A DNA stretch of 64,000 nt from Microcaldota archaeon (lineage in GTDB: Archaea; Micrarchaeota; Micrarchaeia; Norongarragalinales; Norongarragalinaceae): assembly GCA_016188965.1 (NCBI GenBank), contig JACPGT010000002.1:148125-212124 (forward strand). The letters run 5' to 3'. A program made the translations under genes and the position numbers. The notes under the pieces are model-generated. The model had not been told where the DNA came from, ran no database searches, and was given only the letters and a program-made list of their open reading frames with translations. Of this stretch, positions 8,739-19,020 are shown piece by piece. The stretch's first letter is position 1. Each line of letters begins with the position of its first letter.

Positions 8739-8772
8739 GGCCGATCTGCGCTTCCCGTTTTTTTCTTGCTTT

Positions 8773-8810
8773 CGCTCGCGAATCAAAATAGTGGGGGATC
8801 TGTGATTCCA
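8773..8810 (-). repeat. Imperfect copy of the tRNA-Pro(TGG) 3' end and flank
   Basis: About 37 bp here (CGCTCGCGAATCAAAATAG, then TGGGGGATCTGTGATTC) match 8871-8908, which is the flank plus 3' end of tRNA-Pro(TGG), with few differences and an offset of 98 bp. The copy is followed by a GC-rich hairpin (CCCAGGG...CCCTGGG) that resembles the one beside the tRNA-Tyr copy at 6661. Confidence 0.65.
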
Positions 8811-8888: not shown

Positions 8889-8998
8889 TGGGGGATCTGA
8901 GATTCGAACTCAGGTCACCAGCTCTTCTGCCTTTGCGACCGCGTTGTGCGTTCGCAAAGTCCCAAAGCTGGTAGGATGCCAGGCTACCCCAATCCCCC
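8889..8998 (-). tRNA. tRNA-Pro(TGG) with a 37-nt intron
   Basis: The acceptor is GGGGGAT/ATCCCCC with discriminator A, the anticodon stem CCAGC/GCTGG and the T arm CTGAG-TTCGAAT-CTCAG. The loop TTTGGG precedes the intron and A38 follows it. The intron carries a perfect 8-bp stem CTTTGCGA/TCGCAAAG, as expected of a bulge-helix-bulge substrate. Exons total 73 nt. Confidence 0.93.
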
Positions 8999-9073: not shown

Positions 9074-10186
9074 ATGCGCTCCGCCCTTTTTTCCGTCATC
9101 CTGGCCGCTATCCTGCTTTTTGGTTGCCTGCAAACCCCTTCGACGCCTTCGCTTTCATCGGTCGATTCTTCTGCTTCTTTGACGCCTTCCCCGTCGCTCT
9201 TTGTTCCTTCCCCGACGCTTTTGCCGGCCGCTTCCTCGTCGCTTCCTGCCCCGTCGCCTTCGCTTTCCATTACGCCGTCTCCCCGGTTGTTTGCATCCGG
9301 CTCGTGGCTGTACGTGCTGACGGGTTACGAAAAACCCGGGCTTTTGGGACGGATTGCAGCCACTCCGTCGCAAGGACTGGTCGTGGACGCGTTCAAACAG
9401 ACGCCGGATGCGTGGTTTTCCAACGACGAGGTGGCGGCATTCAAGCAGAACCATTCCGTCGTGCTGGCGTACATGAGCATCGGCGAGGCCGAAGACTACC
9501 GTTTCTATTGGAAGCCTGAATGGGCGGCGAATCCGCCGGACTGGATGGGCAACGTCAACCCCCAGTGGGGCAGCCCGAAAGTCAAGTATTGGGACCCGGC
9601 TTGGCAAACCATCGCCCTCGATTACGTGCGACGGATAGCCGGCCAGGGTTTTGACGGCGCCTATCTGGACATCGTGGACGCGTACGAGTACTGGTCGGAC
9701 GAGGACAACGGCGAACGCCCGTTTTCCGACGCGTCGTTTTCCGGCCAGCGCAACTTCTTGGACCGGGATGAGGCGGCGGCCCGCATGATTGCCTTCATCG
9801 CAGCCATTCGAGGTGCTGGCCGAAACATCAATCCGGATTTCAAGATCTTTCCGCAGAACGCGCAGCAACTCGCGGATTATCCGGATTATCTGGACGCCAT
9901 CGACGGAGTCGGCCGCGAGGACACGTGGTACGTCGGCTACGACGACCGCAATGCGCCGGGAAGCCGGGCGGTTGCCTCCGATGCGGAACGCCTGGCTTAC
10001 GAATTGGAGCCGTTGCGGAAAATCAAGGCCGCCGGGAAAACCGTCCTGGTCGTTGATTATTTCGACCCGGTGCAGGAAGAAGAAAAAAAGGATTTCCTGC
10101 AAAAGGCGGCCGTCGAGGGCTTCCCAGCGTATCCCGCGGATTCGCGAAAGCTGGATAACGTCCAGTCGCCTGTTGTGCCTCGTTGA
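9074..10186 (+). CDS. Lipoprotein with GH114-like (TM1410/MJ1477-type) glycosidase domain
   Basis: A 370-residue protein with a lipobox (LLFGC, Cys18), then a Pro/Ser/Thr linker to about residue 75, then one TIM-barrel-like domain. Diagnostic segments are VVLAYMSIGEAEDYR, GFDGAYLDIVDAYEYW and a late VLVVDYFD, as in the GH114 endo-alpha-1,4-polygalactosaminidase / TM1410 family. By family it would act on an extracellular amino-sugar polysaccharide while tethered to the membrane; the real substrate is not shown. An AT-rich box (GATATAAAAACC, 9043-9054) lies just upstream of the ATG, so the mRNA is probably leaderless. The gene just downstream carries a homologous domain. Confidence 0.85.
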   Translation: MRSALFSVILAAILLFGCLQTPSTPSLSSVDSSASLTPSPSLFVPSPTLLPAASSSLPAPSPSLSITPSPRLFASGSWLYVLTGYEKPGLLGRIAATPSQGLVVDAFKQTPDAWFSNDEVAAFKQNHSVVLAYMSIGEAEDYRFYWKPEWAANPPDWMGNVNPQWGSPKVKYWDPAWQTIALDYVRRIAGQGFDGAYLDIVDAYEYWSDEDNGERPFSDASFSGQRNFLDRDEAAARMIAFIAAIRGAGRNINPDFKIFPQNAQQLADYPDYLDAIDGVGREDTWYVGYDDRNAPGSRAVASDAERLAYELEPLRKIKAAGKTVLVVDYFDPVQEEEKKDFLQKAAVEGFPAYPADSRKLDNVQSPVVPR

Positions 10187-10246
10187 AATACGGGGCCCTG
10201 TGTTGTTTCCCACAACTCTTATTAATCTGCGGCGATTCGCTTCACT

Positions 10247-13200
10247 ATGCGTCGTCGGGGTCAGGGAACTTTTGAATACGTCCTGCTTCTCGGTGGCGTT
10301 CTGCTCATCGTCGTCCTAGCTATCGTCGTGCTGCAGAACACGTTCAACCAATCCACGCAGGGCATTTCAGAGATCGAGATGAAGAAATGCAAGGCCGCTG
10401 CCGGCGCGTCGCCTGCATGTTTCGCGGGGAGCATCTTCCAACCGTCGGCTTCTTTTTCCTCTTGGGAAGTGCCGGAAGGCACGTTGTGCGACTGCAGCAA
10501 CTTCAATCCCGACGCGTTACCGGGTGGTTCGGAGCCGCAGACTGAGTTCAGCCGACCTTCCACTCTTTACTTCGCTGATTCGGCAGCCGTTTCTCCCGCT
10601 CCCGCCACATTGACCCGTCCGCGTCTGATTGGCGATGGCAAACGGTTGCGGCTGGTGTTGCAGCATTTCGTGTCCTCCACCTATTCCGGCCCCTTGCGGG
10701 TCGTATTGCCGGTTTCCAAAGACCGTGTCCAAAAACTGGTTGTAATGCCGTTTTCCCAACCCGTCTTATCGGAGTCGTTGGATGGATCGGGGCTGACCGT
10801 GCTGAAGTGGGACCAATTTCACCCGGTGAACAAAAAACAACTTTTCATCGTCATCGCCTATCTCAAGCCAGCCGACCGCAAGCAGGTCGAAAGCGAAATC
10901 CGGTCCAAGATTCCCAAAGTCACTGCGGCCAGGCCGGCCCACTTGCCGGAGGGCTTCGACGAGTACGTCCATCCTGGCGTTTCCGAATCATCGTTGACTT
11001 GTTTGCCGGAAGGCAGCAGCTGCGCCAACCCCTTCGGGCCTGCCTGTTGCAGCGGGCTTGCCTGTGATGCGGGCGCTTTCATGTCCTGCAAAAAGACCAG
11101 CCTGCCTACGCCGCTTCCCGTGCCCACCTCTACGCCCATGCCTATTCTGACGGCCACTCCTATTCCCACGTCCACCCCCACTGCTTTGCCTTCACCGACT
11201 CCCACGCGTCAACCCTCTGCCTGCGTGCAAGCGCGAGGCCAATGCGTCAGCGTGTTCGATGTAAGCGACGTCTACCGCAACTGCGTGCGCGGAAACGACG
11301 CTGCGCTTGACGCTTCCTGCGGCGTGGACACGTATTGTTGCGTCCCCCGGCCATCGGTTTTCCCGACTGCCAGTCCTATCCCGACCGCAACGCCGGCACC
11401 CGTGCCTACTTCCACCGCAACTCCATCCCCGACAGCAAGCCCGTCCGCAACGCCGGCACCCGGTGCGTATGTTGCCTGCGGGGCCAACGGCGCGGGAATG
11501 TGCTACAAGACGGTAAGCTACAACACCAACAACAACCACTTGGGCTGTCCCCTCGGCCTCCAGTCATTGGCTGAAAACGGCAGAGAGTGCTCCAATTTGG
11601 GCGCGTCCTGCTGCAAACAGCCCCCGGCGTCGTCCTGTGAATCCGTGGAAGGATTATGCATCGGCGGCCAGCCGTTTTACCCGGATGCCTGCAGTTGGCC
11701 GGAATTCGGCCGGGCGCCGGCTTCTTCGACCGGCTCGTGCAGCCCCAATTTGTTGTGCTGCAAGCCTTCGCCGTCGTACCAGGTAAGTGCGGCAGTGAAA
11801 ATCCTCGCAACGCCGATGCCGGTTTCCACGCCGACGCCTACACTGGCTCCGACAACCATGCCTACGTCAACTCCAACGCCTACCGCCAGCCCTACGCCTT
11901 CTAGCGACTTGCGGTCCGTGAAAACGTGGGCATACCAACTCACCGGATATTCTGCGGTTGATTCTTTATCGCAACTGAAGGCGTCCAGCGCCCAGTTGGT
12001 CGTTATCGATGCGTTTTCGTCGACGCCCACCACGAAGTTCACCGCATCGCAAATACAAGAATTGAAGTCCGCGGGCAAGAAAGTCGTCGCGTATATGAGC
12101 ATCGGCGAGGCGGAAAACTATCGTTATTATTGGAAGACGGGTTGGACAACCGGAAATCCGGCGTGGTTGGGCCGACCCAACAGTGCCTGGTCGCAAGGCG
12201 GCTCCATCAATGCCAAAGTCCGCTACTGGGATCCCCAGTGGCAGGCCGTCATTTTGGGCGATGGAGGTTATTTGGATCAAATCGTTGGCCTAGGTTTTGA
12301 CGGCGTCTATCTGGACATCGTGGACGCCTACGAGTACTGGTCCGATCCGGCGCAGACGGCGGCATCTTCGGATCAACCGGTGGCCGAAATCGCGTTCAGC
12401 GACTCGTCGTTCAGCGGAACCCGTAATTACCTCGACGAAAATGTGGCGGCCGAACGCATGCTCTTATTCATCAAAGCCATCCGGGACCGGGCCCGCAAGA
12501 CGCAACCGTCTTTCGTCGTCATTCCCCAGAATGCGCCGCAATTGGTCAATTATCGGACCGCCACCGGGCTTTCGTATACGGACGTCCTGGACGCCATTGG
12601 TAAGGAAGACACGTGGTATACGGATTATGGAACGACGGATTCGGTAACCCAAAAACTGGGCACGACCGCGTTGTTGCGTTCAACGCCCGACGGCCTCGGT
12701 AGCCTCCGCATCATCAAAGCCGCTGGAAAACCCGTCTTTTCCGTTGATTACTTCAACCCCGCGACGGATTCAGCCAAAGTGTCGGATTATTGCGCCAAAG
12801 CGGCGGTGGAAGGTTTTGTCGCGTACCCGGCCGATGCCCGCAATTTGGACGACGTATCGCGTTTAACGTGTTCTCCGATTCCGATGCTTTCGCCAACCCC
12901 GTCGCCTTCACTTGGTCCCGAGACGTTCACCTTGACCCTCCACTATGGGTCTAATTTCGTTTCCGTGCCGCTTTTCGACTCCAAATACGTCGGCGGCACG
13001 TGCGTATTCGACGGAAAAGACGTACCCGCTTGGCATTTCAACGGCCAGACGTATGACTCGGCCGGAAAGTTCTCGGACAAGTCCATCCGGCTTGAAGCGG
13101 GCAAAGGATACTGGGTTTCGTCGAACAACAAGCAGGACTGTACCGCGGTGTTTTCCGGAACCCGTTCTTTCTCCTCTTATGGACGTCTGGCCCTCCGCGG

Positions 13201-14488
13201 AGGAGGAAACCCGCCAAAATCCTACCGGGGTTGGAACATGGTTGGCGCATTGTCCAAAACGGCGTCTTTTGGCCAAGTCCGGAACGATTGCAAGATGATT
13301 TCCGGATTATTCGGGTATGTCCCCAGTGGCGGCTCTTATGAAAAAGTCGACGTGCTGCAACCTGGAAGAGGCTATTGGGTTTTCGTCGAAAACGATTGTT
13401 TCCTTGACGGAGATTCTTCCTCGCCCGTTCCTTCGCCGACTCCCCCGATATCGGTGACGACGCCGGAATTGCCCGCCCTTCCCTCCGTCGGGACGCCGAC
13501 GCCCGCGCCTTCGCCTGGCGTTACCATCCGTCCAACTATTTTGCCGACGGTAACCCCTGTGGTGTTTGTAACTCCTACCCCTGTGCCGGAAGTGCCGAAA
13601 GTCTGCGCTTCCTACTTCAGCCGCAAAGGCTCCGCCCAGATGGTCCAAGGCACGTGGGCGGACGATCCCCAAATCACCGCGACGCGGGAAAGCTGTCTGG
13701 CCTACATGACGGCCAACATCCTAAGCAAGCCCTACTGCGCGCAGCCGGACGGCCAGTCCATCCTCATCGCCCTGATTCCCAAGTCCAAGTTTTCCTTCGA
13801 GCTTCCCGTCTTGACCTCGGAGGAAAAAATATACTCCCAGGTCTGCCTGCAGCCCTCCCCCAGCCCTTCCCCGTCGCCCACGGCCATCCCGACACCCAAC
13901 TGCCTGGTCCAACTGCCTTTCTTGCAGATCGGCTGCCAACCCATCCCGACGCCCACGCCGCTGCCTTCACCGACTGCCGCACCCATGCCTGCGTCCGACA
14001 CGCTTGTCTTTTCCACCGGCCAGACTAGTTTCCAGACCAGCGCCACAGATACGGCGACGGTCGACCTCAGTTACGTGCTTGTGCAGTCCTCTCTGGACGC
14101 GCCTTTTGACTTCGGCACGGTTAAAACCCGTTCGTTCTACTACGTCACGGATTCCAAACCCGCAGGCAAAGCAGTCCAGGGAATGGTCTTTTACCGTGAC
14201 CCGACGACGAGCAATTTCGTACCCTACATCCATCCGGGCGCCGTGCGATCTTCCGACGGCCGCGTCAGCACGAACTTCGTCCCGTATTCGTACGGCACGC
14301 AACGCGTCGACATCCGGTTCAACGCGGATGGGATAAATTTGGGACCGACCGAGCCGGATTTCATGGATTTCGTCATTTTCGTCCCCGACGGCCCGGGCGG
14401 CCCGTCTTTCCAGATTGACGTCGGTTACGGCGACCAATCAACGCCTCGCTTAGGTTCATCCACGCAATCAGGTGTCGCTTATGGGTAA
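10247..14488 (+). CDS. Giant pilin-signal surface protein with knottin-like, Cys-rich and GH114-like domains
   Basis: A 1413-residue protein. It begins with a class III archaeal signal (RRRGQGTFEYVLLLGG), cut by a prepilin-type peptidase, followed by a hydrophobic helix. Residues 252-281 have six cysteines spaced 6-7-0-4-7, which fits an inhibitor cystine knot. Three further Cys-rich modules ending in CC (about 325-368, 409-461, 464-512) are separated by Pro/Thr linkers. A GH114-like domain spans about 558-875 (GFDGVYLDIVDAYEYW). Next comes a domain with two GYWV repeats (GKGYWVSS, GRGYWVFV; 890-1055), a Cys-containing domain (about 1118-1205) and a beta-rich C-terminus. TATA-like CTTATTAATC at 10218-10227 suggests a leaderless mRNA. 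It is probably filament- or membrane-anchored, acting outside the cell. Confidence 0.85.
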   Translation: MRRRGQGTFEYVLLLGGVLLIVVLAIVVLQNTFNQSTQGISEIEMKKCKAAAGASPACFAGSIFQPSASFSSWEVPEGTLCDCSNFNPDALPGGSEPQTEFSRPSTLYFADSAAVSPAPATLTRPRLIGDGKRLRLVLQHFVSSTYSGPLRVVLPVSKDRVQKLVVMPFSQPVLSESLDGSGLTVLKWDQFHPVNKKQLFIVIAYLKPADRKQVESEIRSKIPKVTAARPAHLPEGFDEYVHPGVSESSLTCLPEGSSCANPFGPACCSGLACDAGAFMSCKKTSLPTPLPVPTSTPMPILTATPIPTSTPTALPSPTPTRQPSACVQARGQCVSVFDVSDVYRNCVRGNDAALDASCGVDTYCCVPRPSVFPTASPIPTATPAPVPTSTATPSPTASPSATPAPGAYVACGANGAGMCYKTVSYNTNNNHLGCPLGLQSLAENGRECSNLGASCCKQPPASSCESVEGLCIGGQPFYPDACSWPEFGRAPASSTGSCSPNLLCCKPSPSYQVSAAVKILATPMPVSTPTPTLAPTTMPTSTPTPTASPTPSSDLRSVKTWAYQLTGYSAVDSLSQLKASSAQLVVIDAFSSTPTTKFTASQIQELKSAGKKVVAYMSIGEAENYRYYWKTGWTTGNPAWLGRPNSAWSQGGSINAKVRYWDPQWQAVILGDGGYLDQIVGLGFDGVYLDIVDAYEYWSDPAQTAASSDQPVAEIAFSDSSFSGTRNYLDENVAAERMLLFIKAIRDRARKTQPSFVVIPQNAPQLVNYRTATGLSYTDVLDAIGKEDTWYTDYGTTDSVTQKLGTTALLRSTPDGLGSLRIIKAAGKPVFSVDYFNPATDSAKVSDYCAKAAVEGFVAYPADARNLDDVSRLTCSPIPMLSPTPSPSLGPETFTLTLHYGSNFVSVPLFDSKYVGGTCVFDGKDVPAWHFNGQTYDSAGKFSDKSIRLEAGKGYWVSSNNKQDCTAVFSGTRSFSSYGRLALRGGGNPPKSYRGWNMVGALSKTASFGQVRNDCKMISGLFGYVPSGGSYEKVDVLQPGRGYWVFVENDCFLDGDSSSPVPSPTPPISVTTPELPALPSVGTPTPAPSPGVTIRPTILPTVTPVVFVTPTPVPEVPKVCASYFSRKGSAQMVQGTWADDPQITATRESCLAYMTANILSKPYCAQPDGQSILIALIPKSKFSFELPVLTSEEKIYSQVCLQPSPSPSPSPTAIPTPNCLVQLPFLQIGCQPIPTPTPLPSPTAAPMPASDTLVFSTGQTSFQTSATDTATVDLSYVLVQSSLDAPFDFGTVKTRSFYYVTDSKPAGKAVQGMVFYRDPTTSNFVPYIHPGAVRSSDGRVSTNFVPYSYGTQRVDIRFNADGINLGPTEPDFMDFVIFVPDGPGGPSFQIDVGYGDQSTPRLGSSTQSGVAYG

Positions 14489-16754
14489 CGTTTTTACTAA
14501 GCATGTATCCCTCGCGATGTTGGGCGTATCCGCCTTGTTGCTTTTGGTCGTTGCCTTTTCATCGCCCGTTCAAGCCGCCACTTCCAGCCGTTGCAACAGC
14601 CCACCGGGCAGCATTTTCTGTCCATATTATCCGCAATACGGTGGCGGCATCACCCCCGGGCAATGTTGTGGCATTCAAACCACGCGGACGTCCTGTGAGG
14701 GAAACAACGTCGTTTCCGTCCGTTATACCCCCACTTGCCTGACCAAGCAGCCCGGCGGTTGCGGCCCGACCACGAAGACCGTGCTGTCCCAGACGTCCTG
14801 TCCGTCCACCACGTCGTGGGGCGGTTACTATTGCAAAGGCAACGCGGTGTACCGCGCGCAAGCCGTGTACGCCGGACGATGTTCCGGAACGTCGTGCGCC
14901 ACCGGTCCACAGACGGGCACCAACGAGGTGTTCGTCCAGACGTGTTCCTCGGGCCAAACCTGTTCGAACGGGGCGTGCGCCGCCAGCGCACCTGCCCCCA
15001 CGGCCCGGCCTACCGCTGTTCCCCCATCCATTCCGACGGTTACGGTCCGGCCTACGTTTACGCTTCCCTGGCCCACGTATGTCCCGCCTACGCCCAGCCC
15101 ATTCAACCCGTTGCCGCGGCCCACTCTCGCTCCTACTCCCGTTGGAACCGGCCAAACTTGCCAATCCGTCGGCGGAAGTTGCGTCCCGCAATACAAACTG
15201 GGCGACAATCCCTGCCCAGCCGGCCAAACCATATCCGGCGCATCCTGCCCGCAACGGCTCCCGGGTGCTCGGAGTACGGTCGTCTGTTGCACGGCGCCTT
15301 CAGCAACTCCAGTTGTAACCGTCATGCCGGCTCCGTCGTGTCCGCCGGTCGTGGTTCCCCGTTGTCCGATTGGATCCGCTTTGACCTATTATCCCCGAAG
15401 CCTTAGTGCTTCCGGTTGTCCGTTGCCTCCGACATGCTCCACGCCTACGCCGGTTCCTTCCGCAACGCCATCGACTTGTGACGCCGCAGGCGGGACGTGC
15501 GTCTTCATCAATGATGCCATCGAGCCCGGGAAAACGTACAACCCTTGTTCCAACGGCGGAACGAGAATCCCCAATGCCGTTTGTGGATCTCTTGGTTTCG
15601 GCAAAGTGGGCCAGATTTGCTGCACGAAGACCCCGGTAGTGCCTCCCGTGGTAACGGTTGTGCCCCCGATTTTTTCGGAAGTCACGTACAGCCGCGCCTG
15701 TTATTCCGAAAAGGAATGCCCGGTCCAGCAAGGCGACGCGACGTGCGTCAAATCTCCCGCGTATGCGGCAGACCTCTGTGCGGGGTACCGCATCGCCAAC
15801 GTGGGCCGTGAATGTTTCACGTATGCGCAATGCGTCGCGTTCAACAAAGGCAAATGCATCCCGGCCCCGGCTTACCCCGGTGATAAATGCGGGCCGAACG
15901 GGTATCGCAGGCTCCTTGAACCGGCAGAATGCCCCTCCATTTTCGATCCGGTCTGCGGGACCGACGGAAAAACGTACCCGAACGCGTGCGAAGCCAAGAA
16001 AACCAATGCCGGTTACAAACCGGGCGTCTGCAAACCCAAGCGCGAAATCAAAGGCCCCGGTTTCAAGACGCCGAGGGGCAGCTCGGTCAAAAGCGCTGGA
16101 ACCACGAGCGTTTCCATCGAAATCTCGACGTCCAGTACGGGTTTGCCGCCGGTCGTCGTTCCGACGGTGTCCAGCGTTCCATTGCCTTCGCCTACCGTGG
16201 CTCCAACGGCGGTTCCAACGCCGAATTGCCTCTTCCGTCTTCCGTTGTTCGGAGGAATCAGCTGCTCTCCGACTCCAGTGCCTCTGCCTTCCCCGGTGCC
16301 CACTTCCGTAGTCACTGCGGTTCCTTCCCCCACGCCGTTTCCGACCGTAATCCCCCGCCCCACGGCTACCCCGTCCGTTGCTCCGACGGTCCTGCCTACT
16401 TTCGTGCCTACAACGTGGCCCCGTCCCAGCGTTTCGGTGGCGCCGACTGCGTTTCCGACGGCGGTTCCCACGTGGATACCTACTGCGTCTCCCACTGCGA
16501 CCCCGACTGCCATCCCGAAGGTCAACCTGCATTGCTACGGCTTCCTTTCGTATCCGTGCGGCATTCCGCCTGCCTGTCCTTCGGGCTGGACTACCATTGA
16601 CGGAACCTGCATCCAAGGTGGAGTGAACCGCACCTGCATTGCACCGCCGTTCACGCTGTCCTGCATTGATTCCGCCGGCGCCACGACCTCGAAGTGTCCT
16701 TCCGGTTACACTGGCAGTTACGTGTCTTCAGTCAATCCCGGGGACTGCCGTTGA
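14481..16754 (+). CDS. Secreted Cys-rich protein with Kazal-type inhibitor domain and Pro/Thr linkers
   Basis: A 757-residue secreted protein with an N-terminal signal peptide (about 1-32). Cys-rich modules separated by Pro/Thr/Val linkers follow. Residues 484-517 match a Kazal serine-protease-inhibitor domain (DPVCGTDGKTYPNACEA, preceded by C484 and closed by C517). Modules ending in CC near residues 235-275 and 335-380 resemble those in the upstream protein. The ATG at 14481 overlaps the upstream stop by 8 nt; a GTG at 14472 is also possible. The overlap implies co-expression with the GH114 surface protein. The target protease is unknown. Confidence 0.8.
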   Translation: MGNVFTKHVSLAMLGVSALLLLVVAFSSPVQAATSSRCNSPPGSIFCPYYPQYGGGITPGQCCGIQTTRTSCEGNNVVSVRYTPTCLTKQPGGCGPTTKTVLSQTSCPSTTSWGGYYCKGNAVYRAQAVYAGRCSGTSCATGPQTGTNEVFVQTCSSGQTCSNGACAASAPAPTARPTAVPPSIPTVTVRPTFTLPWPTYVPPTPSPFNPLPRPTLAPTPVGTGQTCQSVGGSCVPQYKLGDNPCPAGQTISGASCPQRLPGARSTVVCCTAPSATPVVTVMPAPSCPPVVVPRCPIGSALTYYPRSLSASGCPLPPTCSTPTPVPSATPSTCDAAGGTCVFINDAIEPGKTYNPCSNGGTRIPNAVCGSLGFGKVGQICCTKTPVVPPVVTVVPPIFSEVTYSRACYSEKECPVQQGDATCVKSPAYAADLCAGYRIANVGRECFTYAQCVAFNKGKCIPAPAYPGDKCGPNGYRRLLEPAECPSIFDPVCGTDGKTYPNACEAKKTNAGYKPGVCKPKREIKGPGFKTPRGSSVKSAGTTSVSIEISTSSTGLPPVVVPTVSSVPLPSPTVAPTAVPTPNCLFRLPLFGGISCSPTPVPLPSPVPTSVVTAVPSPTPFPTVIPRPTATPSVAPTVLPTFVPTTWPRPSVSVAPTAFPTAVPTWIPTASPTATPTAIPKVNLHCYGFLSYPCGIPPACPSGWTTIDGTCIQGGVNRTCIAPPFTLSCIDSAGATTSKCPSGYTGSYVSSVNPGDCR

Positions 16755-16928: not shown

Positions 16929-18485
16929 TTACCCGTCTATCGCGTCGGCTATTTTGTCCATCTTGACGCGCGTCTGCCCGCCCGAGTCGCGTTCGCGCAG
17001 CGTCACGGTGCCGTCTTCCAGCGTCTGGTGGTCCACGGTGATGCAGTAGGGCGTTCCCAGTTCGTCCTGGCGCGCGTAACGCTTGCCAATCGAGCCGGAT
17101 TCGTCGTACACGCTCTGCGGCAAGGTCTTTTTCAAGGCCGTGTAGACGTCCCAGGCTTTTTCGCCCAAACCGTCTTTTTTCATCAACGGAAAAACGGCCA
17201 CCTTGATGGGCGCCACGATGGGGCTTAAATGCAGGATGGTCTTGACTTCAACGGCGGGCGTGGTGGGTTTGCGGGCCTTTCCGTCAGCGTTGGCGGAATT
17301 GCCTTCATTCGCGGCGGCTTTGGGTGCGTCCTTCTTCTCTTCAAACGCGTCTAACAACAGCGTAAAGACCAGGCGGTCCAGGCCAAAGGACGGCTCGATG
17401 ACGTGCGGCACGACTTTCTGCTTGGTCGCTTCGTCGAAAACCGTCATGTCTTTGCCGGATTCCTTGGCGTGAGCCAACAGGTCGAAATCCGTGCGGTTGG
17501 CGATGCCCATCAGTTCCTTCCAACCCCATTCAGGATAGTCATACTCGACGTCCCACGTTTCCTTCGCGTAGTGCGACAATTCGTCCGATCGGTGCTGGCG
17601 CAGGCGCACCTTGGTCAGGCCCAAACCGGCAAACCAGTCCAGCGCTTCGGCCAGCCAATACGCGTGCCACCGCGTTTGGATGATTTTTTTCTTGACGGCA
17701 TCGCCAAAGGACATTTCGTGGCCCGTGTGGCCGGTTTTTTGGTCTGCTTCGGTGCAGAACAACGCCTTGTGCTTCGAAATACGGTCAAAATCCGGGCAGT
17801 CGTCCAGCTTGTCGGGATGCAGGAAGAACTCGATTTCCATTTGTTCGAACTCCCGTCCCCGGAAGACGAAGTTACGCGGTGAAATCTCGTTACGGAAACT
17901 GCGTCCGGCTTGCGCGATGCCGAACGGCAAGGCCTTGCGACCGATTTGTTGCAAGTATTTGAAGTTGGCGAAGATGACCTGTGCCGTTTCCGGACGCAGA
18001 TAGGCGTAATTGTCTTCGGTCGCTCCGACGGACGTCTTGAACATCAGGTTGAATTTCTTCGCCTCGGAAAGCGCGCCTTTGCAATCCGGACAGGCCAACT
18101 TGTGCTTCTTGAAAAGTTCGTTCAGCTTCGCCTCGGAAATGCCGTCCACGCTCTCGTGGAGTTCCTGTTCGATCAGGTGGTCGGCACGGAACCGGTGCTT
18201 GCACTTCTGGCACTGCACCAGGGGGTCGTTGAACGCGTCCACGTGTCCGCTGGCCTTCCAGATGCGGGGATGTGTCAGAACAGCGCCATCCAGGCCCAGC
18301 ATGTCTTCGCGGTTCTGCACGAAGCGACGCCACCAGCTCTGCCTTACGTTGGCCTTCAATTCGGCGCCGGCCGGTCCGTAGTCGAAGAAGCCGCCGAAAC
18401 TGCCGTAAATCTCCGCCGAGGGAAATACGAATCCGCGGCGGACGCAGAGGTTGATCGTCTTTTGGATTTTGGAGTCTTCGGGCAT
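16929..18485 (-). CDS. glyS: Glycyl-tRNA synthetase, archaeal/eukaryotic class II type
   Basis: Charges tRNA-Gly with glycine in the cytoplasm. The 518-residue protein has class II motifs: the N-terminal RRGFVFPSAEIYGSFGGFFD, motif 2 around GRKALPFGIAQAGRSFRNEI, and the late glycine-binding EPSFGLDRLVFTLL. Four cysteines (CQKC, CPDC, about 90-155) probably form a zinc site in the insertion. The C-terminal anticodon-binding domain is complete. The ATG at 18485 overlaps the hicA stop by one base (TGATG), and a TTG directly before it is also in frame. No TATA box lies between hicA and glyS, so expression appears to depend on the hicB promoter at 18944. Confidence 0.95.
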   Translation of the reverse strand: MPEDSKIQKTINLCVRRGFVFPSAEIYGSFGGFFDYGPAGAELKANVRQSWWRRFVQNREDMLGLDGAVLTHPRIWKASGHVDAFNDPLVQCQKCKHRFRADHLIEQELHESVDGISEAKLNELFKKHKLACPDCKGALSEAKKFNLMFKTSVGATEDNYAYLRPETAQVIFANFKYLQQIGRKALPFGIAQAGRSFRNEISPRNFVFRGREFEQMEIEFFLHPDKLDDCPDFDRISKHKALFCTEADQKTGHTGHEMSFGDAVKKKIIQTRWHAYWLAEALDWFAGLGLTKVRLRQHRSDELSHYAKETWDVEYDYPEWGWKELMGIANRTDFDLLAHAKESGKDMTVFDEATKQKVVPHVIEPSFGLDRLVFTLLLDAFEEKKDAPKAAANEGNSANADGKARKPTTPAVEVKTILHLSPIVAPIKVAVFPLMKKDGLGEKAWDVYTALKKTLPQSVYDESGSIGKRYARQDELGTPYCITVDHQTLEDGTVTLRERDSGGQTRVKMDKIADAIDG

Positions 18486-18706
18486 CAAATCAACTCGAGG
18501 AATTCTTCGTGTGTCAGTCCGGCTTGCCTTATGATGGCTCGGAGCGTGCCTTTGGCGACCTCTCGGTGCTTGGGAACGGTAAGCCGAGTAAAGGGTGCTG
18601 TTTCTTTCCTTAAAATGATGTGGCTTCCGGTATGATGGTCGATTCGGAAGCCGATTCTTTCGAAGGTCTTGACGACCTCCGTTCCGGAGAGCACGGGCAA
18701 TTTCAT
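18485..18706 (-). CDS. hicA: HicA-family mRNA interferase toxin
   Basis: A 73-residue protein of the HicA/YcfA double-stranded-RNA-binding-like fold. It carries the catalytic histidine in TGSHIILRKE and the typical LTVPKHREVAKGTLRAIIRQ end. HicA toxins cleave mRNA independently of the ribosome and are held inactive by HicB. It overlaps hicB by 4 nt (ATGA) and glyS by one base, so all three are probably translated from one message. Confidence 0.88.
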   Translation of the reverse strand: MKLPVLSGTEVVKTFERIGFRIDHHTGSHIILRKETAPFTRLTVPKHREVAKGTLRAIIRQAGLTHEEFLELI

Positions 18707-18921
18707 GCGCTCACGGCGACGATTTCGGCCTTCCTCCCTGGGATTTTTTCTCCGTGTTTTTTCAGGCTTTCAAGGTAACCTTGGATAGCGTCTTTGATGT
18801 TCTTGAGCGCCTCGGCCTTGCTTTTGCCTTGGCTGACGCATCCGGGCAAGTCGAGGCACTCCGCCACGAAGATGCCGTCTTCATCCTGCGAAACGATGAC
18901 CTTGTACTTCATGTCTTCCAT
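18703..18921 (-). CDS. hicB: HicB-family antitoxin
   Basis: A 72-residue protein with the HicB partial-RNase-H-like core (DEDGIFVAECLDLPGC, then GKSKAEALKNIKDAIQGYLE). The C-terminal DNA-binding domain found in many HicBs is absent or very short, so autoregulation is uncertain. The ATG at 18921 lies about 25-30 nt after a TATA box at 18944-18951. Starts at 18912 and 18954 are alternatives. The antitoxin gene is first, before hicA and glyS. Confidence 0.88.
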   Translation of the reverse strand: MEDMKYKVIVSQDEDGIFVAECLDLPGCVSQGKSKAEALKNIKDAIQGYLESLKKHGEKIPGRKAEIVAVSA

Positions 18922-18943
18922 GCAGATGGTGCTACTAGACCTA

Positions 18944-18951
18944 GATAAAAA
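18944..18951 (-). promoter_or_regulatory. TATA box of hicB-hicA-glyS
   Basis: The minus strand reads TTTTTATC, 23-30 nt before the hicB ATG at 18921. It is the only clear box upstream of the three overlapping genes. Confidence 0.55.
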
Positions 18952-19020
18952 CAATCGGTATAGGAAAAATCAACCCAATCTGGTGATTATGAGTATAAAA
19001 AGAAAAAACGGAACGCGGCT

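Follow-up and report, generated by a model that had tools for sequence, protein, structure and literature searches.

We describe a cluster of three genes in which one pilin-type protein combines a class III signal peptide, a glycoside hydrolase (GH) domain of family GH191 and a domain derived from the archaeon's own surface-layer (S-layer) protein. The cluster occupies positions 9074-16754 of the stretch analysed here (the window; 64,000 nucleotides (nt) of contig JACPGT010000002.1 from a Micrarchaeota genome), and the outer two genes encode a second GH191 protein and a secreted Cys-rich protein with a Kazal domain. It seems to us about evenly balanced whether the set serves the surface-displayed hydrolysis of a Pel-like galactosamine matrix, a reading taken from sequence. 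DPANN archaea live in contact with or close to other cells, and how they work on intercellular material is little known. A preliminary description of this DNA had supposed a DPANN-type archaeon, and this was borne out: the close relatives, including G002 and G008, are groundwater metagenome-assembled genomes of Candidatus Micrarchaeota. In the following, G000 is the window's own genome, G001 and G002 belong to the same genus, G008 to the same family, and G011 is an order-level relative. The same description had placed three genes together, with the last two overlapping, and the open reading frames (ORFs) confirm this:

9074..10186, + strand: gene 1, a 370-residue (370-aa) secreted, probably lipid-anchored GH191 (TM1410-type) protein (ORF, profile matches)
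10247..14488, + strand: gene 2, 1413 aa, a class III (pilin-type) mosaic of Cys-rich modules, GH191 and a C-terminal S-layer-derived domain (ORF, profile matches)
14472..16754, + strand: gene 3, 760 aa, secreted and rich in Cys, containing a Kazal domain; overlaps gene 2 (ORF, profile match)

Both hydrolases had been called GH114-like. This holds for the profile PF03537, which matched gene 1 with 75.4 and gene 2 with 72.5 bits (cut-off 27), but not for the family in the strict sense. TIGR01370 (MJ1477/TM1410) gave the stronger matches (197 and 197.7 bits, cut-off 181.25), and in phmmer searches of the PDB the best solved relatives of both proteins were TM1410 (9euz and 2aam; E 7.8e-30 for gene 1 against 9euz) and the Env-type structure 9ep5. 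Neither gene matched Ega3 or FsGH114 at E 0.001 in these searches, whereas a member of GH114 in the strict CAZy sense would be closest to such fungal or bacterial enzymes; PelA (5tcb) appeared as a weak match of gene 1 (E 3.3e-5). A 2025 paper placed TM1410 and an environmental homolog in the new family GH191, separate from GH114 (PMC12054363); since it sets the TM1410 group apart, GH191 is the precise name for genes 1 and 2. Similarity to 2aam, 9euz and 9ep5 implies that the two proteins share a modified (beta/alpha)8 barrel, and gene 1 has a lipobox-like LLFGC near its start. Absence of the active-site residues, which the preliminary description had regarded as a point that would tell against it, was found in neither gene. 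The putative catalytic pair of TmGH191, Asp156/Glu225 (PMC12054363), could be located in both by alignment, and the Asp and Glu columns are invariant in all eight GH191 copies aligned:

9668..9670, + strand: gene 1 catalytic Asp199, equivalent to TmGH191 Asp156 (alignment to TM1410; role from PMC12054363)
9917..9919, + strand: gene 1 catalytic Glu282, equivalent to TmGH191 Glu225 (alignment to TM1410; role from PMC12054363)
11924..12862, + strand: GH191 domain of gene 2, residues 560-872 (PF03537, TIGR01370, PDB phmmer)
12314..12316, + strand: gene 2 catalytic Asp690 (alignment)
12605..12607, + strand: gene 2 catalytic Glu787 (alignment)

The pilin-type signal on a protein with the same hydrolase domain, likewise part of the preliminary description, was recovered in gene 2 by PF04021 next to the GH191 profiles. 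The N-terminal stretch of gene 2, RGQGTFEYVLLLGGVLLIVVLAIVVLQNT, is identical at 29 of 29 positions to a 107-aa small pilin encoded in the pilus operon of the same genome (G000:C4, L199 5382-9745). This operon comprises an ATPase-like ORF with the P-loop GGTASGKT, typical of pilus ATPases, two T2SSF proteins and two small class III pilins, and the genome also encodes an A24-type prepilin peptidase (Peptidase_A24, PF01478, 49.6 bits). The profile PF07431 gave no match as a marker of the class III peptidase; because it misses Methanocaldococcus jannaschii too, it is unfit for this purpose and PF01478 was used instead. Many other giant class III proteins of the genus share residues 3-92 of gene 2. 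Given the helix identity, the peptidase and these other giant proteins, the product of gene 2 is most likely matured and treated by the cell as a giant minor pilin, and the proposed display on the surface or on a pilus is well supported as far as sequence goes. The parts of the protein outside its hydrolase domain are as follows:

10253..10342, + strand: class III signal peptide and pilin helix (PF04021 28.1 bits, cut-off 23.7)
10982..11782, + strand: Cys-rich modules with Pro/Thr linkers (sequence; one weak Toxin_7-like match, PF05980 16.5 bits, below the cut-off of 27)
12914..13426, + strand: domain with a GWN...GYWV double repeat, frequent among surface proteins of the class
13991..14485, + strand: S-layer-derived domain, residues 1249-1413, without the terminal GF.SPRGS hairpin (homology to G000:C17, models)

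The S-layer-derived domain is absent from the preliminary description. It corresponds by homology to the middle of the S-layer protein that the genome itself encodes (G000:C17, E 2e-24), and recurs with strong scores only in the family, where it is found in the S-layer proteins G000:C17, G002:C40, G001:C8 and G008:C94. These four match TIGR01564 (S_layer_MJ) at 60-70 bits, and the three scanned with PF05124 match that profile as well. In the window genome the domain further occurs in a 1964-aa protein (G000:C6), in an S8 subtilase (G000:C18, L182 2640-7253; subtilase match 127 bits) and in a DsbA/thioredoxin lipoprotein (G000:C1, L179 1428-4367), so that it looks like a surface tag common to the lattice protein and to surface enzymes. 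The end of gene 2 is an S-layer-derived module and not an S-layer protein, because only this one domain is shared and profile scans found neither the S_layer_N nor the S_layer_C region in gene 2. A model of the complete domain, built from 242 residues of the DsbA lipoprotein with 14 sequences, reached pLDDT 84 and pTM 0.86 and had no PDB fold match at E 0.001. The same was true of the GWN...GYWV domain, in which the structure model is confident; residues 885-1413 of gene 2 as a query matched 48 of the 295 genomes used for this and the gene 3 search, mostly through the GWN...GYWV part.

Genes 1 and 2 contain the only two PF03537 matches of their genome, and TIGR01370 exceeded its cut-off in six of 301 genomes of the phylum (the window genome, G002, G008 and three distant genomes with a single copy each). 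Because the domain is confined to this site in the genome and to so few genomes of the phylum, its occurrence in two copies side by side is not due to chance. Elsewhere GH191 occurs widely in both bacteria and archaea, for the most part in lipoprotein-type or signal-peptide proteins. A tree of 78 GH191 sequences united the copies of the family in one clade (support 100/99). Nested inside this clade (support 100/94 and 97/57) is a membrane-anchored GH191 protein from a Parcubacteria contig of the same groundwater set (L066 580-1680, JACRHX010000036.1), which has 42% GC and UvrD- and SufS-like genes by eye; this likely reflects transfer between ultra-small cells of DPANN and of the candidate phyla radiation (CPR), or a binning error. 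A patescibacterial sequence (L079) nests in a second DPANN clade of the tree.

Each of G000, G002 and G008 has two GH191 copies, one stand-alone and anchored as in gene 1, the other tied to a class III protein. The class III-GH191 link, by fusion or by adjacency, is thus present in every genome of the family that has GH191, three of three. In G002 (C13) a class III protein, whose first ~37 residues are lost at the contig end, carries GH191 and ends in the C-terminal Cys domain of gene 3 (phmmer iE 4.7e-12; E 1e-11). In G008 (C133) the gene after that of a 530-aa class III S-layer-domain protein encodes a predicted surface protein of 3338 aa (L016 115-10131, - strand), in which propeller-like repeats, an S-layer-derived domain and long stretches rich in Cys are combined with GH191 at the C-terminus. 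The preliminary description had suggested that neighbourhoods of such hydrolases and class III signals be compared across archaea, and among the loci compared the link recurs in the family only: none of the 80 best GH191 loci outside the family had a class III signal on the GH191 ORF, and a profile test found no class III protein near or on GH191 at any of 19 archaeal or CPR loci outside it. Of the idea that the three genes are kept together in relatives, the class III-GH191 link stood and the trio did not. Orthologs of the gene 1 type lie on other contigs (G002:C5, G008:C5), full-length gene 3 was not found in the 295 genomes, and the flanks of the locus are rearranged and not syntenic. A conserved three-gene operon was therefore rejected, as genes 1 and 3 are not kept in place. 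The neighbourhood of the glycyl-tRNA synthetase (GlyRS) gene was likewise dropped as a conserved site: GlyRS adjoins the gene 2 ortholog in G002 as it does in the window, while in G001, where the left flank of the locus lies on another contig, a different Kazal protein is encoded two genes from GlyRS, on its opposite side.

Gene 3 was described as a secreted Kazal-domain protein. The signal peptide and the Kazal match (PF00050, 33.9 bits) are indeed there, but the match is single and spans positions 8-28 of the 49 in the profile, and the cysteines in register (C487, C495, C506 and C520) are four of the six that a three-disulfide Kazal domain would have. Two parts of the protein are relevant here:

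15930..16031, + strand: Kazal core CPSIFDPVCGTDGKTYPNACEAKKTNAGYKPGVC, four cysteines, C5 absent (PF00050 33.9 bits, cut-off 21)
16476..16748, + strand: C-terminal Cys domain, fused to the class III-GH191 protein in G002:C13

The reduced form also occurs in several relatives. By comparison with the ovomucoid third domain we take P2 to be Pro and P1 to be Ser, which we regard as a lead only. A survey of 78 relatives and the window genome found Kazal matches in 24 of the relatives and four times in the window genome, mostly in large surface proteins without GH191; in the order-level relative G011 (C10, L056 7513-16340) there is a run of neighbouring Kazal-domain ORFs with four matches. Given the four-cysteine form, the P2 and P1 residues and a distribution mostly unlinked to GH191, inhibition by gene 3 is not assumed, and a structural or self-regulatory role is as likely as protease inhibition.

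How might these parts act together? Gene 1 would be an ordinary membrane-anchored GH191 enzyme. The class III signal of gene 2 would be cut by the prepilin peptidase and its helix inserted into the membrane or into a pilus of the genome's machinery, so that the Pro/Thr linkers and Cys-rich modules carry the second GH191 domain outward, while the C-terminal domain would dock on, or co-assemble with, the archaeon's own S-layer. The gene 3 product would be secreted and associate with that of gene 2. Near the surface, the set would cleave a galactosamine-rich (Pel-like) polymer of a biofilm matrix or of neighbouring cells, and thereby free sugars or clear a path. The substrate, the insertion into a filament, the docking on the S-layer and the binding between the products of genes 2 and 3 are all steps that we infer; for the first of them, the environmental enzyme Env-GH191 cuts Pel and favours its galactosamine-rich stretches (PMC12054363). 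The attack on a host's coat combined with resistance to its proteases, as imagined in the preliminary description, is no more than a possibility.

Several observations weigh against surface-displayed hydrolysis by the set. TmGH191, which has the same residues, neither bound nor cleaved fungal galactosaminogalactan (GAG; PMC12054363), and because of this, enzyme activity is not provable from the residues alone. The gene 2 domain is the most divergent of its clade, of which it forms the deepest and longest branch (0.76). A subunit of 1413 residues may be held only in the membrane, and the trio as such is not conserved.

The enzymes could instead trim or release a galactosamine surface glycan or exopolysaccharide of the archaeon itself, for example in cell detachment, and have no role against other cells. 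Since gene 1 is membrane-anchored and gene 2 carries a domain of the own S-layer, both enzymes would be placed beside the cell's own glycans. PelA-type hydrolases (GH166) act on the polymer of their producer, and the weak match of gene 1 to PelA points the same way. We nevertheless find this self-directed role rather unlikely: the surroundings of the cluster yielded no genes for polymer synthesis (a genome-wide search for these was not made), and GH191 is missing altogether from G001, a genome of the genus that is ~90% complete in 10 contigs, which argues that the genus does not need GH191 for its own envelope.

A low probability, too, attaches to the proposal that GH191 of gene 2 is a sugar-binding module with little or no catalysis on a giant adhesin of the pilus tip or surface, in which the Cys-rich, Kazal and GWN modules would be binding or structural elements. 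The mosaic of domains with its long Pro/Thr linkers, the divergence of the gene 2 domain, the inactivity of TmGH191 on GAG and the many other giant class III proteins of the genus without a recognised enzyme are all in keeping with an adhesin. They are to be set against the catalytic pair, strictly kept in every copy, and against the maintenance of two GH191 copies in each of three genomes.

The S-layer-derived domain of gene 2 raises a further question, as it stops short of its last element. In 11 of 14 copies the domain is followed by a hairpin of the form GF.SPRGS.L....SA.I.Y, which is part of the complete domain model with pLDDT 90-93. Both gene 2 (ending GVAYG*) and the 530-aa class III protein of G008 (GVAYE*) stop just before it, and in each case the neighbouring gene has GFKTPRGSS with no domain copy directly before it, at residues 530-552 of gene 3 and at 2926 of the 3338-aa protein of G008, the latter having an additional complete copy with hairpin at 2859. 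In the window this segment is:

16059..16127, + strand: GFKTPRGSSVKSAGTTSVSIEIS, gene 3 segment similar to the hairpin that closes the S-layer domain (profile match; 9-mer GFKTPRGSS identical in the G008 3338-aa protein)

The pairing of a truncated domain with an orphan hairpin in two genera suggests strand complementation between neighbours: the partner would supply its hairpin in trans, as in donor-strand complementation, and so clip a Kazal/Cys-rich protein (G000) or the 3338-aa GH191 protein (G008) onto a scaffold bound to pilus and S-layer. We offer this tentatively and think it improbable. The gene 3 segment matched the hairpin profile marginally (E 0.008 among 1797 ORFs), the orphan motif of G008 did not match it significantly, and the shortened domain of gene 2 was predicted confidently alone, without its hairpin. 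The G002:C13 fusion protein has neither the S-layer-derived domain nor the hairpin motif, and the third hairpin-less copy (G002:C68) resembles a single gene whose frame changes internally; its ORFs (L183 2149-3897 and 3894-6992) appear to make up one S-layer-domain protein, split by a sequencing error or a real frameshift. For genes 2 and 3 themselves, the notion of one frameshifted gene could be ruled out, because the class III protein of G008 stops at the corresponding point and gene 3 comes with a signal peptide of its own.

It is also conceivable, if quite unlikely, that module-shuffled surface-protein genes have merely come to lie at a variable locus beside GlyRS and have no joint function. 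The lack of the trio in all relatives and of synteny in its flanks would fit such an accident, and the separate TATA-like element in front of gene 2 leaves room for independent transcription of genes 1 and 2. An accident would leave unexplained the class III-GH191 link in three genomes, the fusion of the gene 3 domain to a class III-GH191 protein in G002 and the paired truncated domain and orphan hairpin in G000 and G008. Least of all do we expect that gene 3 protects or regulates the archaeon's own surface subtilase (G000:C18) instead of inhibiting host proteases: serine proteases including subtilisins are the classic targets of Kazal domains and this S8 enzyme carries the S-layer-derived domain, but four of six cysteines with Pro at P2 and Ser at P1 are unlike good inhibitors, and the Kazal and subtilase genes are unlinked in the genome.

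As to expression, the stretch ATATAAAA is centred ~27 nt before the ATG of gene 1, and a TATA-like TATTAAT lies ~25 nt before that of gene 2; by eye, both appear to be placed as in leaderless archaeal messages. Gene 3 is probably translated from the same message as gene 2. Its start may be the ATG at 14481 instead of the GTG at 14472, in which case the overlap with gene 2 is 8 nt, and AGGTG stands just upstream. Just upstream of gene 1, a local search with the Rfam tRNA model (46.1 bits) brought out a tRNA gene at 8889-8998 on the - strand, missed both by ARAGORN and by a whole-window search at the gathering threshold; its anticodon arm is interrupted by ~40 inserted nt, and its 3' flank recurs in diverged form at 8768-8796. 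Beyond the cluster, two small overlapping ORFs at 18485-18954 (- strand) resemble a HicA/HicB-like toxin-antitoxin pair by eye only.

If surface-displayed hydrolysis by the set holds true, a pilus-type protein that unites an enzyme against matrix polymers with part of the archaeon's own S-layer would make a concrete and testable surface tool, and archaeal S-layer domains would serve as display tags for enzymes, here also on the subtilase and the DsbA-like lipoprotein. Pel and other galactosamine polymers would offer a clear enzyme assay for an uncultivated group.

GH191, class III pilins, S-layer domains and Kazal domains are known parts, and their combination was not found elsewhere among the searched genomes. 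With Kazal-type inhibitors (PF00050) gene 3 shares the C2-C3-C4-C6 pattern and the CGTDGKTY core, but it is without C5, has Pro at P2 and Ser at P1 and embeds the domain in a Cys-rich protein of 760 residues. Like the GH191 endo-galactosaminidases (TM1410/MJ1477, TIGR01370; Env-GH191, TmGH191; PMC12054363), both hydrolases belong to the same family and have the Asp/Glu pair and an extracellular anchored form, gene 1 being a typical lipoprotein-type member, whereas gene 2 adds a class III pilin signal and an S-layer-derived domain. Archaeal class III (EppA-type) pilins have the same signal, and the helix matches that of the operon pilin exactly, but in gene 2 both stand on a protein of 1413 residues with enzyme and surface modules and not on a small pilin. 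The C-terminal domain has its homolog in the middle of the genome's S_layer_MJ-type S-layer protein (TIGR01564, PF05124), of which gene 2 uses one domain, without S_layer_N and S_layer_C parts and with the last hairpin missing. In idea, this S-layer-derived domain has a loose parallel in bacterial enzymes anchored by S-layer homology (SLH) domains. A similarly loose parallel to gene 2 is provided by the hami of Altiarchaeum, which consist of a protein similar to S-layer proteins (PMC4460559).

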